A stretch of 27,278 nt of DNA from positions 1 to 27,278 of the IMG/VR virus record IMGVR_UViG_3300009620_000038, one strand, 5' to 3'. This DNA comes from a virus. Below the pieces are notes generated by a model, which was not told the origin of the DNA, did not search any database, and worked only from the letters and a program-made list of their open reading frames with translations. This document shows positions 4,744 to 15,489 of this stretch, in pieces. Numbering within the stretch: the first letter of the stretch is position 1; each line of letters starts with the position of its first letter. The position numbers were made by a program, and so were the translations under genes.

Positions 4744-5037
4744 ATGAGATTTGTTACCGGCGTTACAACGATTAGTAGTGCGGGCACAAGGGTGCAATTA
4801 AATAATGTCACCAACAGGGTGAAGTTTGTTAAAGCAAAAGCATTGGCTGGCAACTCTGGCTTGGCCTATGTAGGGGTCTCGGACGTGGCCTCTACTACGG
4901 GATATGAGCTGAGTGCAGGCAACGAACTGGAATTAAACTTTGGAGACTTTGGAGGATCTGTACCAGCAAATGTGTTTTATGCAGATGCGGCAACGAACAG
5001 CGATAAGGTTTGCTGGAGTATGATATTGGAAGGCTAA
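4744..5037 (+). CDS. Small beta-sandwich virion protein (97 aa)
   Basis: ATG at 4744 has TAGGAG six bases upstream, which includes the stop of the preceding gene. The protein is beta-rich, with the segment AGNSGLAYVGVSDVAS, then LSAG, then DKVCWSMI near the end. The 91-residue product at 9545-9820 shares the same arrangement (GNAG...V.ISDV...T...LSAG...DTVSWAI), so the two look like paralogous small decoration or fibre-accessory proteins. No enzyme motif. The last base of its stop is the first base of the next start (TAATGA). Confidence 0.6.
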   Translation: MRFVTGVTTISSAGTRVQLNNVTNRVKFVKAKALAGNSGLAYVGVSDVASTTGYELSAGNELELNFGDFGGSVPANVFYADAATNSDKVCWSMILEG

Positions 5038-5432
5038 TGACTACGCAACAAATCACAGCAGTACCTGCCGGATGGCAAGGATCGCTACCAGAATACGTAG
5101 CGTACACAACCTTTGAGTCTATAGGGTTGCGCCCTGGGCAGGATTTTATTTATCAGTCCCCCCTCTTAGGGGGGCGGATAGAGAAGGGTGGGCTGGTATT
5201 GGATTTTCTATTCAATGATCCGCCCGACCTTGCGGTCAACGTGCAGGGTGTATACTATCACTATGAGTTTGGAGTAGAAACAAAAGGACGAGATATAATA
5301 GCTCGTGAAGGAGCCGTAAGCCGGGGACTTACGTTAATTTTCATAGATGAGGACGATTTATTACGGGACCCGGAGTATTATTGCAGAGAAGCATTACGAT
5401 ATAGAGATCATTCTCGCATGACAGGGGGATAA
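5037..5432 (+). CDS. Vsr/DUF559-like PD-(D/E)XK nuclease in the tail module (131 aa)
   Basis: The frame is open further upstream, but the start is placed at 5037, in a TAATG overlap with the previous gene. Visible features fit the very-short-patch-repair-endonuclease-like fold: an acidic residue in SLPEY (E19), an Asp in GGLVLDF (D56), the strand AVNVQGVYYHY with a His (H75) at the position of the Vsr FWHGH segment, a Lys/Asp helix start (KGRD), and the final strand LIFIDEDDLL. It therefore probably cleaves or nicks DNA, or is a degenerate relative used structurally. No cysteine cluster for the structural zinc of Vsr is seen. The placement between tail genes is unusual and could reflect a homing-type insertion or a virion-packaged nuclease. 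Confidence 0.55.
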   Translation: MTTQQITAVPAGWQGSLPEYVAYTTFESIGLRPGQDFIYQSPLLGGRIEKGGLVLDFLFNDPPDLAVNVQGVYYHYEFGVETKGRDIIAREGAVSRGLTLIFIDEDDLLRDPEYYCREALRYRDHSRMTGG

Positions 5433-5433
5433 C

Positions 5434-8400
5434 ATGGCTATTAACTTTAGAGGATATTTATTCGATGACTCAGGCAGTGCTATCCAGGGGGCTACGGTAC
5501 AGCTCCTACAAGAATCGGATGGTGCAGAGGAGGCATCAACGACTACCAGTGCCGCCGGCCTATGGTATTTTAACGAGTCCGACCAAGATAGGTACGATAT
5601 AAAGATTACACGAGGTAGCTCAATACGCTACATTCAGTGGAACGACCAGATATCTCTCAGGGAAATAGATGTCCGTAATGATACTGACGAGAATACTCCT
5701 GCTGCCACGTTTACTAACCTTGAGGATAATGTTTCTAACCAAGTAGCTGTGTTTAGCGGAGCTAACGCAACCAGGGCTGACAATGATGAAATTTATTTGT
5801 CCTTCAAGTTAGCTAATTCCGCAGGGGACATTGAAGAGTTTGCTCGTATGACGGCGGTGGCAACAGATGTGACAGATGGTAATGAGGATGCTCAGATAGA
5901 ATTCGATGTAAGAAAGTCAGGCACTTTGACCAAGGTGTGGACTATTGCATCAAGTGACGCTGGTGCTATGTCATTCGACATGAACGTAGATGCTCTTACT
6001 ATAGGGTCAGGTGCTAATACAGACATCTCTCTCACCTTTGATGCCACCACGTATGATGGTGTTATCACATGGATGGAAGACGAGGACTACTTCAAGTTCT
6101 CTGATGAGATCCTTATGAATAGCACAGAGAAAATCCTATTCGGAGATACAGGCACATTCATTCATCAGTCCTCTGACGGAGTTCTAACGATAACCTCAGA
6201 TACTACGGTAGATATCAATGGAGCCGTAGCTTTTGATGGGGCCTTAACAGGCATTACGAACATCACTTTGTCCGGCACACTATCAGACGGCAACTATACA
6301 TTTGATACTAGTGGCAATGTTAGTGGGTTAGGCACGATAGGTTCTGGGGCGATTACATCTTCTGGGAATGTTACATCAGGTGGATCATTCATTATAGGTA
6401 GTGCTTCTATAGCTGAAGCAGAACTGGAAATGATAGATGGTATTACTGCTGGAACAGCAGCAGCAAGTAAAGCTGTGGTGTTAGATGGAAGCAAGAATAT
6501 TGCAACTATAGGTACTATAGGATCTGGTGCAATTACATCAACAGGCACTAGTTCATTTGCTACTGCAATACAAACCCCTCTTATAGAGTATACAGATGGA
6601 GATGACGCTATCACCATTGCTGATGGTGGCGGTATCACCGCAGCAGCAGGCATAACTTCTACCGCAGCAGCTAACAGCTTTGGTGCTACCTCATTTGGAG
6701 ATGCCAGTATTACCAATGTGAATGATATAGCCCTCGATAGTATTAGTGCTGATGGCACAGATATCAACATAGCTGTTAGCGATAATTCAGCGACAGCTCT
6801 GACAATCAAGCAGGGGTCTGATGCCTACTTGATTGTTGATACCGCTAATAGTAGTGAGTCAGTGTCTATAGGTACTGGTATCTCAGGTACGGCGATTACG
6901 ATAGGACATGGAGTATCGGAGACTATAGTCGGAGACAACCTCACGGTTACTGGAGATTTCACTGTATCAGGTACAACAACAACTATAACTTCAACAACAG
7001 TAGCTGTAGCAGACTCCTTACTGAAGGTCGCTAAAGACCAAGGAACGAGTGCAGACGCAGTAGACTTTGGTATCTATGGTCAATACGGAGAAAGTGGCAC
7101 AGCTAAATGGGCAGGTATCTTTAGAGATCAAAGTGTTACTGGTGACCCTTGGACATTCTTTGATGCTGTAGAGGCAGAGCCTGGTACTACTGTAAACGTG
7201 GGTGGTACAGGATATGACTTAGCAGATATATCAGCAGGAGGAATAACAGCCGCTGATACTCTTACATTCGGTAGTTTGTCAGATGGTTCAATAACTATAA
7301 CAGCGTTTGTTGATGAAGATGATATGAGTACAGACTCAGCTACTCTGGTTCCAACACAGCAATCTGTTAAGGCTTATGCTGACTCGCTAGGTGCATCAGG
7401 TGACATAACTGCTATCTCATCTATATACAACACTAGCTTGAAGATGGGTAGAGATAGTCAGAATTTAATTGACTTTGCCACTACTGATAACAAGATTATT
7501 CTTAGAGTTAATAATGCTAACGAGGTGGAGTTAGTAGAAAATGCTCTATCGCCAGTAACTAGTGACGGGGTTGCACTAGGCACTACGTCCCTGATGTGGT
7601 CTGATCTGTTTGTAGCTAGTGGCGGTGTCATCAACTTCAATAATGGAGACATGACACTCACCCACTCAGCGAACACACTAACGGCAGCAGGCGGTACAGT
7701 AGCAACGGCAGCCCTAACAACCAGTACCATTGTTGCATCCGGCATTGTTAAGACGGATGACGCAACTGAAGCAACGTCTACAACAGACGGATCTCTGCAA
7801 ACAGACGGTGGATTATCTGTAGTTAAAGATGCGGTGTTTGGAGATGACGTTTTCCTACTGACTGATAGTGCAGTGTTCAACATGGGGGCTGGCAGCGATG
7901 CCACTCTAACACACGATGGCACTACTGGATTAACTATAGCCGCCAACCCTATCATTGTTGATTCTGGTGCGCAAATAGAGCTTGATTCAGCGAGCGGAAT
8001 CCTCACCTTTGAGGATGGTGGCACAGAAGTGTTACGCTTTACTGAGGGCAACTCAGGAGACGTGACCATAAAACTGGTTACCAATGCAAAAGACCTTATA
8101 TTCACCGATAACAATGATGACGAGGGCTTTAGGATACTAGACGGTGCTCTTGGTGTGAAGGTTCCTGGGGAAGTGATGACCACCAAGATCAGCTATACCG
8201 ATGGTGATGATGCCATTACTATAGCCGATGGTGGTGGTATTACCTCAGCGGCAGGGATTACATCTACTGCTGCGGCTAATGCGTTTGGTGCTAGTTCGTT
8301 TGCTGGTGATGTAGCAGTTGCTGACAGTAAGTTTGTTGAGTTTGAATCAGCAGCTGGAACTCCGACCACTGATAATACTGTTCAAGGAATTGTTATAGAA

Positions 8401-12716: not shown

Positions 12717-13001
12717 CTACCTGGCATTCTTTTGGCGGATTGCTGCGTGGTTGAGGTCGGAAGCCGTTTCTCCTAGTTTAACCCAGTCCAGGAACTCGTC
12801 CAGTATAGCGACTACTGCCATCAGTTGGGTCCTGTTGGAGACCGGCAGTATGGATCGTTCCTTTTCCCCGGTCTTTGGGTAAGTTATACGATTGATGATT
12901 AAGTATGCAGCTCTAAGCATGTCCAGTTCGTTATACTTCTCCCGGTTCATCAGCACTGCCAGTGCGTGTGTGTAATCCGAATCGCCTTTTATTATAGGCA
13001 T
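12717..13001 (-). CDS. Small helical hypothetical protein, last gene of leftward operon (94 aa)
   Basis: The frame is open upstream to 13076, but ATG at 13001 overlaps the stop of the VRR-NUC gene by one base (TAATG), so that start is chosen. The product is mostly helical (DYTHALAVLMNREKYNELDMLRAA; TQLMAVVAILDEFLDWVKL) with no recognised domain. As the distal member of a coupled operon of nucleases and a methyltransferase, it may be an accessory or regulator; function unknown. Confidence 0.55.
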   Translation of the reverse strand: MPIIKGDSDYTHALAVLMNREKYNELDMLRAAYLIINRITYPKTGEKERSILPVSNRTQLMAVVAILDEFLDWVKLGETASDLNHAAIRQKNAR

Positions 13002-13375
13002 TATCCTATCTCCTCTATTTCTATAGCGGCCAACACCCTCTCGATTGTTCCATTCATCCAATGCGATGGTCTCCACACAAATGTATCCTCACCGGCGTGG
13101 TTGAGTGCCGACATCCACACTTCCTGTACATCAGTTAGTTTGCCGAGTTCGGCTTTGAGTTCAACATATATTACTCTATCCTTAACTAATACCAGATCCG
13201 GGAACCCGGCTGCATCGTACTGGACGGCAGTGACCCAGTTGCCTCGCTTGGTCATGCCCGGTCTGAAGTGTGCCACGAGCCATCCTTGTGCCCTGGCAAG
13301 AGAGATGACGTTCTGTTGCAGATCCGCTTCAGACATAGACCGGGCTAGTTGTTCTTGTGGTGTCAGTCTCTTCAT
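13001..13375 (-). CDS. VRR-NUC domain nuclease (124 aa)
   Basis: This is a stand-alone VRR-NUC protein of the PD-(D/E)XK superfamily. Such phage proteins are structure-specific nucleases that act on branched DNA. Motifs are in order: an N-terminal acidic helix (SEADLQQNVISLARAQG, about 14-31), GFPDLVLV with D60, VELKAE with E72 and K74, the conserved GKLTDVQEVW (Q84), and AGEDTFVWRP. Length is typical for the solo domain. The start (ATG overlapping the methyltransferase TGA as ATGA) has AGGAG eight bases upstream. Its location next to a methyltransferase suggests processing of replicating or packaging DNA, or a defence/counter-defence role. Confidence 0.85.
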   Translation of the reverse strand: MKRLTPQEQLARSMSEADLQQNVISLARAQGWLVAHFRPGMTKRGNWVTAVQYDAAGFPDLVLVKDRVIYVELKAELGKLTDVQEVWMSALNHAGEDTFVWRPSHWMNGTIERVLAAIEIEEIG

Positions 13376-14574
13376 CCTAGTAATCTCCTGAGAAACAGTG
13401 CCACCACCGCAGGTACGACTCCGTTTCCAAGGGCTTTAAGCTCGTCCACCCTATGGGTACGCCCATCAACCATTCCACGAAACTGGGATTCAGCCTTCTT
13501 TGTAAGTGCTGGGGCAAGGTCTGGTCGCTCTGTAAGGATTCTTCCCCACTCGTCTGATTGGCTTGGTCCTGGGGGCCAGGATGGGATGCCTCTTGGGTAG
13601 CCCACGTATATGTTACTGAGGGAAGATCGCTCTCGCCCTGCCAAGTCTCTGTTGGTCTTCTCCAGTTCATATCTGATGCCATTGGAGTCGGCCAGTTCGT
13701 TTGACCCTGTTGCACCGACACCTGATCCCGTAGATTGTTGGGGTTGGATCTCCCCTGTCTGTGGGTGTGCTCGTGATCCAGTGCCTCTTGGCTCTTGGGA
13801 TCTAGCACATCCATCGTGTTGGGAGTCATCCAGTTCTCCCTGATTGTATCCATTAAATGTTCCTGTTGATTGGGTCGGCTGTTCATTGTGTCCTTGTAGT
13901 CTCTCGCTTGTGGAGTCGGCCAAGTCTCTGTTGCGTCTCGCAGCTTCACTCCCCACCTCACTCCGTCCTTGTTCTTCCTGCTGAACGATCCGTTCTCCAT
14001 CTCCACGTTCTGAACCAAGCCCCCCTCTGTGTCCGATACCCTTGGAGTCGGCCAAGACCCCAAAGCAGAACCATCGTTTTCTTCTATGTGGTGCTTCGGC
14101 ATCGTCAGCTCCCACAACTTCCCAGAAGCAGTCATACCCGATTTCGGTAAGTTGTCCAACCACAACTCCCCCGTATGCTGGGGTTCGTTCATCAACTGAG
14201 CTAGAAAGGAGACCTGAGACATTTTCCAGGAGGATATATCTGGGAGCCACTTCACGAATAACTCTGAGCGTATCAGGCCATTTGTTTCTGGAATCCTCAG
14301 AAGATCGCCTGGCTCCAGCAAACGAGTGCGGCTGGCAGGGGAATCCTGCTGTAACGAGGTCAACCATTCCTCTAAACTGTTCACCCCTAAAGGAAGATAT
14401 ATCGGAGAAGATGGGTGCGTCCGATAAGAGTTTGTCTTTGATTCTTGCTTTGATAATTTCTTGTGCATACTTCTCCCATTCGACATAAGCTATTGTCCTT
14501 GTGTTAATATTAGCGAGTTTCACGCCCAGGCTAATGCCTGAATATCCGGTAAACAAACTGAGTTCAGTAATCAT
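13372..14574 (-). CDS. C5 cytosine DNA methyltransferase with repeat-containing target domain (400 aa)
   Basis: Transfers a methyl group from S-adenosylmethionine to cytosine C5 in DNA. Signature motifs run in order: LFTGYSGISLG (residues 7-17, motif I), GFPCQPHSFAG (77-87, catalytic Cys80), LLENVSGLL (115-123, motif VI), APHRRKRWF (161-169, motif VIII) and LKALGNGVVP near the end (motif X). Between motif VIII and X is a long low-complexity target-recognition region with four recurrences of L(A/D)DS (LADSKGIG, LADSTSER, LDDSQHDG, LADSNGIR). The start overlaps the sigma-like gene as ATGA, after GAGGGGG. A second, 363-codon frame lies inside it. Motif I has Tyr-Ser where Phe-AGxGG enzymes have Gly-Gly context, yet looks functional. 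It probably guards phage DNA against host restriction; specificity cannot be read. Confidence 0.9.
   Translation of the reverse strand: MITELSLFTGYSGISLGVKLANINTRTIAYVEWEKYAQEIIKARIKDKLLSDAPIFSDISSFRGEQFRGMVDLVTAGFPCQPHSFAGARRSSEDSRNKWPDTLRVIREVAPRYILLENVSGLLSSSVDERTPAYGGVVVGQLTEIGYDCFWEVVGADDAEAPHRRKRWFCFGVLADSKGIGHRGGLGSERGDGERIVQQEEQGRSEVGSEAARRNRDLADSTSERLQGHNEQPTQSTGTFNGYNQGELDDSQHDGCARSQEPRGTGSRAHPQTGEIQPQQSTGSGVGATGSNELADSNGIRYELEKTNRDLAGRERSSLSNIYVGYPRGIPSWPPGPSQSDEWGRILTERPDLAPALTKKAESQFRGMVDGRTHRVDELKALGNGVVPAVVALFLRRLLG
13377..14468 (-). CDS. Overlapping WPTP-repeat ORF nested in the methyltransferase gene (363 aa)
   Basis: In a second same-strand frame a stop-free ORF spans nearly the whole methyltransferase and ends five bases before its end. 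The longest frame starts at 14486, but ATG at 14468 has GGGAG four bases upstream and is preferred. The product (numbered from the longer start) shows features I recognise from a widespread phage protein group often labelled only as methyltransferase-related: DSPASRTRLL (48-57), SSWKMSQVSFL (85-95), LPKSGMTASGKLWEL (113-127), repeats WPTPRVSD, WPTPQARD, WMTPNTMD and WPTPMASD, and LNPSFVEWLMGVPIGWTSL (332-350). The WPTP repeats are the DNA of the LADS repeats read one base apart. It could be true dual coding, or a spurious frame that mimics database artefacts. Confidence 0.4.
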   Translation of the reverse strand: MHKKLSKQESKTNSYRTHPSSPIYLPLGVNSLEEWLTSLQQDSPASRTRLLEPGDLLRIPETNGLIRSELFVKWLPDISSWKMSQVSFLAQLMNEPQHTGELWLDNLPKSGMTASGKLWELTMPKHHIEENDGSALGSWPTPRVSDTEGGLVQNVEMENGSFSRKNKDGVRWGVKLRDATETWPTPQARDYKDTMNSRPNQQEHLMDTIRENWMTPNTMDVLDPKSQEALDHEHTHRQGRSNPNNLRDQVSVQQGQTNWPTPMASDMNWRRPTETWQGESDLPSVTYTWATQEASHPGPQDQANQTSGEESLQSDQTLPQHLQRRLNPSFVEWLMGVPIGWTSLKPLETESYLRWWHCFSGDY

Positions 14575-15077
14575 GTACGCCCCCTCATCATCTCGAATGC
14601 CCGGCGTTCTATCTGTTGGGCTCGTTGCTTGGTGACATTTAATCCTTCACCAATCTCTGCATGTGTTAACCGAAACTCATGGTCCGGGTTCAATCCAAAG
14701 CGATCCATCACAACGCCCTTGTATTTATCCGGGAGTACACGCAACACCAGGGTAACCTGCTGTGCCAGTTGCATTGGCGTACCATCTAGATCAAGTGATA
14801 GCTGTTCCAGAAAGTGACGCCTTCTCTTATCCATCGTAGGCTCCTGGTCTTCTTCAATCCCTCGTGCTTGTACGAGGACTAGCTCTATAGCTTTTGGAAC
14901 CAGGCGTTGACCACAAAAGCATTCCACCTGGTAGGTGGCATAGCGATTGTTGTCTTTAATATGAATAGAGGTTCCTGTTATGTACCCCTGGTGTTTCCAG
15001 TGCCTATTGTATTTTGCGGTTCGAGGTACGAACTGCACCTTATCCCCATAGTAAAACTTACGTGAGTTGTTTCCCAT
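14571..15077 (-). CDS. Sigma-70 region 4-like protein with N-terminal SH3/KOW-like domain (168 aa)
   Basis: The C-terminal 60 residues (about 106-165) closely follow sigma-70 region 4: VLRVLPDKYKGVVMDRFGL, LTHAEIGEGL, then VTKQRAQQIERRAF, the recognition helix-turn-helix that contacts the -35 element. Region 2, needed for -10 melting, is absent. The N-terminal 70 residues form a short beta domain (YYGDKVQFVP, GYITGTSIHI, YATYQVECFCG, PKAIELVLV) like SH3/KOW/Tudor folds, with one Cys-x-Cys. ATG at 15077 is chosen over one at 15092 because AGGGGAG stands five bases before it. Probably a transcription regulator that recruits or redirects host RNA polymerase to phage promoters, or a region-4 decoy. 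Confidence 0.7.
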   Translation of the reverse strand: MGNNSRKFYYGDKVQFVPRTAKYNRHWKHQGYITGTSIHIKDNNRYATYQVECFCGQRLVPKAIELVLVQARGIEEDQEPTMDKRRRHFLEQLSLDLDGTPMQLAQQVTLVLRVLPDKYKGVVMDRFGLNPDHEFRLTHAEIGEGLNVTKQRAQQIERRAFEMMRGRT

Positions 15078-15489
15078 AATGTCTCCCCTCACAGGCTTTG
15101 CAGTTAACTATCGCAGCCTCTGAGCAAAAATTTTCTGGTGCATGTATGCACTCGGTATCCTGTGGTGCTATCTCCCGGTATAGTTTCTCTAGTCTATCCC
15201 ATAAATCCAGATGATCCATCAGCCATTCATGTGTATGGATCATCCTCTCTTGTGTGGCCGTCAGCATTGCTCGAATACCCGGTAGGTCTGCCGTCAAGGT
15301 AACGAGATCCTGTTTGTTATTCTTTAACATCTTCATTATTATCTCGAGTTGGCCTGGGTCTATTGTATCAGGGGGTTTCACCCCTAGGTCCGCACCATCC
15401 GGGATAATCGTGAAGCCATTAAGGCGTACAGTTTCATAGAGCTGTACGCCTTTTTCAATTTGTCTAAGGTCTACTATATTTTGGTCCAT
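15058..15489 (-). CDS. TubC-like docking domain protein with C-terminal Cys cluster (143 aa)
   Basis: Residues about 12-66 follow the TubC N-terminal docking pattern: a helix, G-F-T-I-I-P-DGADLGVKPPDTI beta hairpin, then a helix ending KNNKQDLVTL. The middle (70-108) is helical and Trp-rich. The C-terminus has Cys114, Cys122, Cys130 and Cys133 (C-x7-C-x7-C-x2-C), a probable zinc site. It overlaps the ATPase gene by 16 bases, with GAGG seven bases before the ATG, and the sigma-like gene by 20. A protein-protein adaptor in the replication or transcription complex is plausible. Family assignment is from the visible pattern. Confidence 0.5.
   Translation of the reverse strand: MDQNIVDLRQIEKGVQLYETVRLNGFTIIPDGADLGVKPPDTIDPGQLEIIMKMLKNNKQDLVTLTADLPGIRAMLTATQERMIHTHEWLMDHLDLWDRLEKLYREIAPQDTECIHAPENFCSEAAIVNCKACEGRHYGKQLT

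Follow-up and report, generated by a model that had tools for sequence, protein, structure and literature searches.

Overlapping frames of a viral C5-cytosine methyltransferase locus very probably encode two subunits of one enzyme

Can one strand of DNA encode two long proteins over almost the same stretch, and if so, what does the second protein do? The question was raised by a C5-cytosine DNA methyltransferase gene in the virus record IMGVR_UViG_3300009620_000038, of which positions 1 to 27,278 (27,278 nucleotides, hereafter the window) were analyzed. The initial annotation had described, inside this gene (alpha), a same-strand open reading frame (ORF) of 369 codons ending five bases before it, and the ORFs of the window agreed with this description: the nested ORF (beta) lies in the +1 frame of alpha, both being on the minus strand, and its stop is located five bases ahead of alpha's end. 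The beta product begins with a region containing SSWK and LPKSGM, followed by WPTP cassettes and a C-terminal block resembling motif IX of C5 methyltransferases. The LADS repeats of alpha double as WPTP of beta, as had also been pointed out; three LADS (14044-14055, 13912-13923 and 13684-13695, read as WPTP) and one LDDS (13822-13833, read as WMTP) underlie the four units of beta. We conclude that beta is a real gene, dual coding being well supported, and that the locus very probably encodes a heteromeric C5-cytosine DNA methyltransferase whose two subunits are alpha and beta.

One explanation of the open frame is compositional: the codon usage and amino-acid repeats of alpha could keep the +1 frame free of stops without its being translated. 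When the codons of the window's alpha were shuffled synonymously, the +1 frame acquired 6.8 stops on average, and none of the 20,000 shuffles was devoid of stops. The approximately 17 stops expected in the initial annotation were thus too many, while its conclusion that the openness is not accidental holds. Relatives were sampled in two ways. A scan of viral contigs and bacterial/archaeal genomes for the pattern VEW[L/M]MGxPxGWT collected approximately 215 viral and genomic loci, in which the catalytic domain of alpha overlaps beta in the identical relative frame. Because this pattern, composed of beta-frame codons, fixes some wobble bases of alpha, the set was excluded as an unbiased test of openness, and a second sample was taken by the PCQ region of alpha alone, giving 62 loci with complete alpha. 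The +1 frame was without stop in 61 of them, over 187-482 codons, the +2 frame having 5-50 stops; homologous loci, proposed earlier as the place to look for interruptions, thus kept the nested frame open. In total, 3 stops were observed in the +1 frame of the 62 loci against 249 expected from synonymous shuffles, and 836 against 855 in the +2 frame. The control, 24 classical C5 methyltransferases that have motif IX, showed no such depletion (237 observed and 271 expected in the +1 frame, 540 and 539 in the +2 frame). The family-wide zero of +1 stops that accompanied the window shuffles was not counted because the regions had been bounded by beta ORFs, making it true by construction; the window figure and the 62-locus totals are those that count.

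Purifying selection was detected on both frames. Every substitution in 116 independent pairs was classed by its effect in the two frames, with flanking single-coded genes and a dummy +2 frame as controls. Over motifs I-VIII, alpha-nonsynonymous changes were rare (0.16), and changes synonymous in alpha and nonsynonymous in beta occurred at a rate of 0.43, compared to 0.82 for the dummy +2 frame; in the flanking genes the dummy +1 frame gave 0.93, corresponding to no effect. The constraint at alpha-synonymous sites, which the initial annotation had named as a test of dual coding, was indeed found. The selection was divided along the gene. After motif VIII, codon positions 1, 2 and 3 of alpha differed at 0.258, 0.097 and 0.105, the fast position being the third position of beta. 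Changes nonsynonymous in alpha and synonymous in beta were nearly free there (0.74), and those of the opposite class were at 0.26; against these ratios it has to be set that only 22 substitutions after motif VIII were synonymous in both frames, which makes them rough, the position pattern being independent of them. In motifs I-VIII the constraint is mainly that of alpha, and in its second half the gene evolves according to the beta frame. Since the pattern after motif VIII follows the beta frame, LADS is mostly a passive, near-neutral shadow of WPTP. Each repeat does exist in both proteins, as first read, with its function mainly in the WPTP frame. As for a compositional origin of the open frame, synonymous shuffles seldom gave stops in some relatives (per-locus probability of zero stops up to 0.97), as it would require. 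At the family level, however, it is already refuted by the stop depletion and by the two-frame substitution test, in which alpha-synonymous sites were constrained mainly where beta changes; together with the window shuffles, the classical enzymes and the enrichment of ribosome-binding motifs at beta starts described below, these results leave it with next to no chance of being correct.

The initial annotation had pointed to ATG 14468 as a start of beta. This codon is not conserved in five relatives (loci L001, L003, L004, L007 and L008), whereas ATG 14486 and the preceding Shine-Dalgarno (SD) sequence AAGGAC are conserved in close relatives, AAGGAC being found in L001, L003, L004, L005, L007 and L008. 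Judging from this conservation, ATG 14486 is more likely to be the start. Among 286 distinct betas, an SD-like motif preceded 63% of the first beta starts, the control figures being 18% for starts inside beta and 15% for starts in the +2 frame. A ribosomal frameshift after motif VIII, yielding one fused chain of motifs I-VIII, WPTP and the IX-like block with no separate start of beta, was considered in this connection. Selection changes frame near motif VIII, and single-chain relatives show that such a fusion works. The part of beta ahead of the switch point is nevertheless also constrained (0.46 for alpha-synonymous/beta-nonsynonymous changes in the first third of the I-VIII region), beta is equipped with a start and an SD sequence of its own, and motif X, being encoded in the alpha frame, would be missing after a single shift. 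The frameshift fusion was rejected on these grounds as improbable.

The methyltransferase had initially been credited with all main C5 motifs. Motifs I-VIII and X were confirmed in alpha, including I, IV (PCQ), VI (ENV) and VIII, with X at the C terminus, but motif IX was not found in the alpha chain, whose match to M.HhaI covers residues 5-170 only and stops at motif VIII. The canonical motif IX pattern was present in none of the 62 alpha-selected relatives, and a whole-genome scan showed it in 24 of 31 C5 genes. At the C terminus of beta, the consensus RxLNP..VEWLMGxPxGWT was conserved (44 relatives). In 19 actinophage-type loci, motifs I-VIII, WPTP cassettes, an IX-like block (EWMMGWPxGW) and motif X are combined in one ORF, and other actinophage-type relatives have overlapping alpha/beta pairs with motif X in beta. 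Both the IX-like block and X are located in beta in the split relatives L031, L041, L131 and L136 and in many actinophage loci. The single-chain profile found M.HhaI (E=2.6e-23), and a second collinear segment, individually insignificant, aligned WMMGWP...GNGVV with VMGYPDSY...GNSVV. The predicted single-chain model (predicted template modelling score, pTM, 0.76) had M.HhaI as its top PDB match in Foldseek, over 366-386 alignment columns. The linear order in the chain would place WPTP at the position of the target-recognition domain (TRD). Pfam searches on the split and single-chain forms covered motifs I-VIII only or gave no match.

Alpha is without motif IX, beta ends in an IX-like block, and in the actinophage single chains cassettes and block are joined to the catalytic part. 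The most likely role of beta is therefore that of a specificity and motif-IX subunit in a split enzyme. In the proposed scheme, motif X would come from alpha together with the catalytic domain (motifs I-VIII, which include the PCQ nucleophile and bind S-adenosylmethionine), and beta, translated separately from ATG 14486 in the +1 frame, would supply the small-domain function, namely the motif-IX-like block and the variable WPTP cassettes, most likely for target recognition. The two chains would assemble, the cassettes would read the DNA target, and the enzyme may protect phage DNA from restriction. The initial annotation had suggested a compact overprinted pair in a phage modification system; the dual coding is supported, and the two products seem to complement each other within one enzyme, rather than being an enzyme and an unrelated protein. 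A functionally unrelated beta, for example an anti-restriction or regulatory protein, would agree with the failure of beta to match any known structure directly, by sequence or by fold. It is highly improbable, given that the single-chain relatives have WPTP and the IX-like block in one reading frame with the catalytic domain, that alpha is without motif IX, and that split pairs keep the block and X in beta.

The closest precedent is M.EcoHK31I, in which a beta gene for approximately 176 amino acids lies within alpha in another frame. M.EcoHK31I (YGGCCR) consists of two polypeptides, the large subunit carrying motifs I-VIII and X and the small subunit motif IX (PMC3404938). The window alpha shares this large-subunit layout without IX, the two having been compared by description, whereas the window beta, with 369 amino acids and four WPTP cassettes, is unlike its counterpart. 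M.AquI (CYCGRG) is an alpha/beta split C5 methyltransferase with motifs I-VIII on one chain and IX on the other (PMC3404938). The M.AquI-type location of both IX and X on the small subunit is not seen in the window, where X is in the alpha frame. The single-chain actinophage enzymes (phage Rita, L335-L349) are like beta in having WPTP cassettes and an EWMMGWP-type block, then X, but differ from the window in having everything in one frame and one chain. Another likeness is to the ShiLan element, an out-of-frame HNH gene hidden in phage methylases (PMC11855218), in that a phage C5 methylase conceals a second gene in a different frame. ShiLan, however, is an inserted mobile HNH endonuclease present in some phages, whereas beta is family-wide; as Pfam and PHROG searches also gave no HNH match of beta, a hidden HNH insertion was rejected. 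All of the 81 aligned betas matched phrog_1008 and phrog_26627, and 61 matched 27243; these PHROG entries are named 'DNA methyltransferase' or unknown function and do not state the nesting.

Several points weigh against the assignment of beta to a split enzyme. The TRD of M.EcoHK31I has been placed in the large subunit (PMC3404938), whereas selection and the single-chain relatives point to beta as the carrier of the variable module in the window family. Direct PDB profile searches with beta or its IX-like block retrieved no C5 methyltransferase, and the IX assignment thus draws on the single-chain relatives and weak collinear alignments; of the weak hits of a smaller IX-X profile, many were C5 methyltransferases (best E=0.18). 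Pfam and NCBIfam searches with beta gave no match. The structure predicted for beta alone was poor (AlphaFold predicted local distance difference test 57, pTM 0.27), with no fold match in Foldseek, and the expression and activity of alpha/beta are predictions.

The WPTP part of beta is variable among relatives. The 767 WPTP segments identified had a median length of 39 amino acids and numbered 0-8 per locus, commonly 1-4. Recurrent cassette families were common to alphas with identities down to 25-30%, 59 of 107 actinophage cassettes matched beta cassettes of the nested set (which itself includes a few actinophage loci), and close relatives of the window (L001, L003 and L004) differed by whole cassettes. 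Exchange of target-recognition modules is known for multispecific phage C5 methyltransferases, and the cassette pattern resembles it by analogy. We lean slightly towards the view that the cassettes work as exchangeable modules for target recognition, which distant phages have acquired, lost and traded with both frames kept open. In this view a phage could change or widen its methylation specificity within a gene that overlaps another completely, and cassette type would predict the methylated sequence. Such a cassette-to-specificity code, if right, would be testable with methylome data.

The arrangement of the two frames varied. In L031 (minus-strand ORF 4851-5943, reverse-complement coordinates) and L041 (10636-11809, plus strand), an alpha of 170-192 amino acids lies largely within beta, with the IX-like block and X in the beta frame, a layout intermediate between nested and AquI-like. 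The single-chain enzyme of L134 (phage Rita; 1169-1628, plus strand) keeps a +1 ORF of 153 codons that encodes SSWK...SGMTRSG and a pair of WPTP-type units but no IX-like block. In L021 and L114 the N-terminal part of beta leads into motif X, the IX-like part lying in a third frame; these look like damaged or rearranged enzymes whose frames were exchanged by an indel. L111 (132-1952) contains a tandem of two overlapping alpha/beta units. Where the genes were not nested, alpha and beta overlapped in part or formed a single chain. As to the stand-alone WPTP genes suggested for search, databases do contain WPTP proteins, many of them under the name 'DNA methyltransferase', but no clear stand-alone gene was found among the motif-selected loci, the apparent cases being nearly all cut at contig ends, with one short exception (L194).

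Of 14 annotated records, Synechococcus phages among them, 10 list only alpha, four only beta, and none both. The four are public phage records (L130, L133, L414 and L418), two of which give beta a methyltransferase product name. WPTP proteins are named DNA methyltransferase because the records annotate only one of the two genes, and the nesting accounts for such database entries as had been surmised. No paper describing family-wide nesting was found in the literature searched, a search that did not include the original M.EcoHK31I paper. The new points are the extent of the nesting, the assignment of functions to frames, the shuffled WPTP cassettes and the one-gene-only annotation in the 14 records. 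If the two-subunit reading is right, the annotation of a large class of phage/prophage C5 methyltransferases covers half of the enzyme, and expressing the listed gene alone could miss the activity. The pair would also be unusual in DNA phages for the extent of its same-strand nesting, the products appearing to be parts of one enzyme and selection being divided along the gene.

The features of the locus are summarized in Table 1.

Table 1. Coordinates of alpha, beta, their motifs and the next gene in the window
Feature	Position	Strand	Remarks
alpha, C5 cytosine methyltransferase frame	13372..14574	-	400 aa (amino acids); PF00145 E=3.4e-37
beta, nested gene in the +1 frame of alpha	13377..14486	-	369 aa; phrog_1008 E=1e-21
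alpha motif I, LFTGYSG	14536..14556	-	
beta Shine-Dalgarno AAGGAC	14495..14500	-	8 nt before ATG 14486
alpha motif IV, catalytic PCQ, AGFPCQPHS	14323..14349	-	
alpha motif VI, ILLENVSG	14212..14235	-	beta reading of the same DNA, SSWKMSQ
alpha motif VIII region, AEAPHRRKRWFCFG	14059..14100	-	
beta cassette 1, WPTPRVSDTEGG...	13923..14054	-	alpha reading LADSKGIG...; cassette family of 23 members
beta cassette 2, WPTPQARDYKDT...	13833..13922	-	cassette family of 176
beta cassette 3, WMTPNTMDVLDPKSQEAL...NLRDQV	13695..13832	-	family of 32; related cassette in actinophage split enzyme L354
beta cassette 4 and linker, WPTPMASD...	13500..13694	-	
beta motif-IX-like block, RRLNPSFVEWLMGVPIGWTSL	13437..13499	-	L, LMG, P, W invariant across 44 relatives
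alpha motif X, RVDELKALGNGVVP	13411..13452	-	overlaps the motif-IX-like block of beta
VRR-NUC, next gene	13001..13375	-	PF08774 E=2.6e-6

The ATG of the VRR-NUC gene is located between the stop of beta (TAG) and that of alpha (TGA), all within the eight bases TAGGATGA (window 13372-13379), and this packing of two stops and a start suggests translational coupling. Directly upstream of alpha lies a gene (14571-15092) for a protein with a sigma-70 region 4 domain; the end of this gene overlaps the start of alpha (ATGA).
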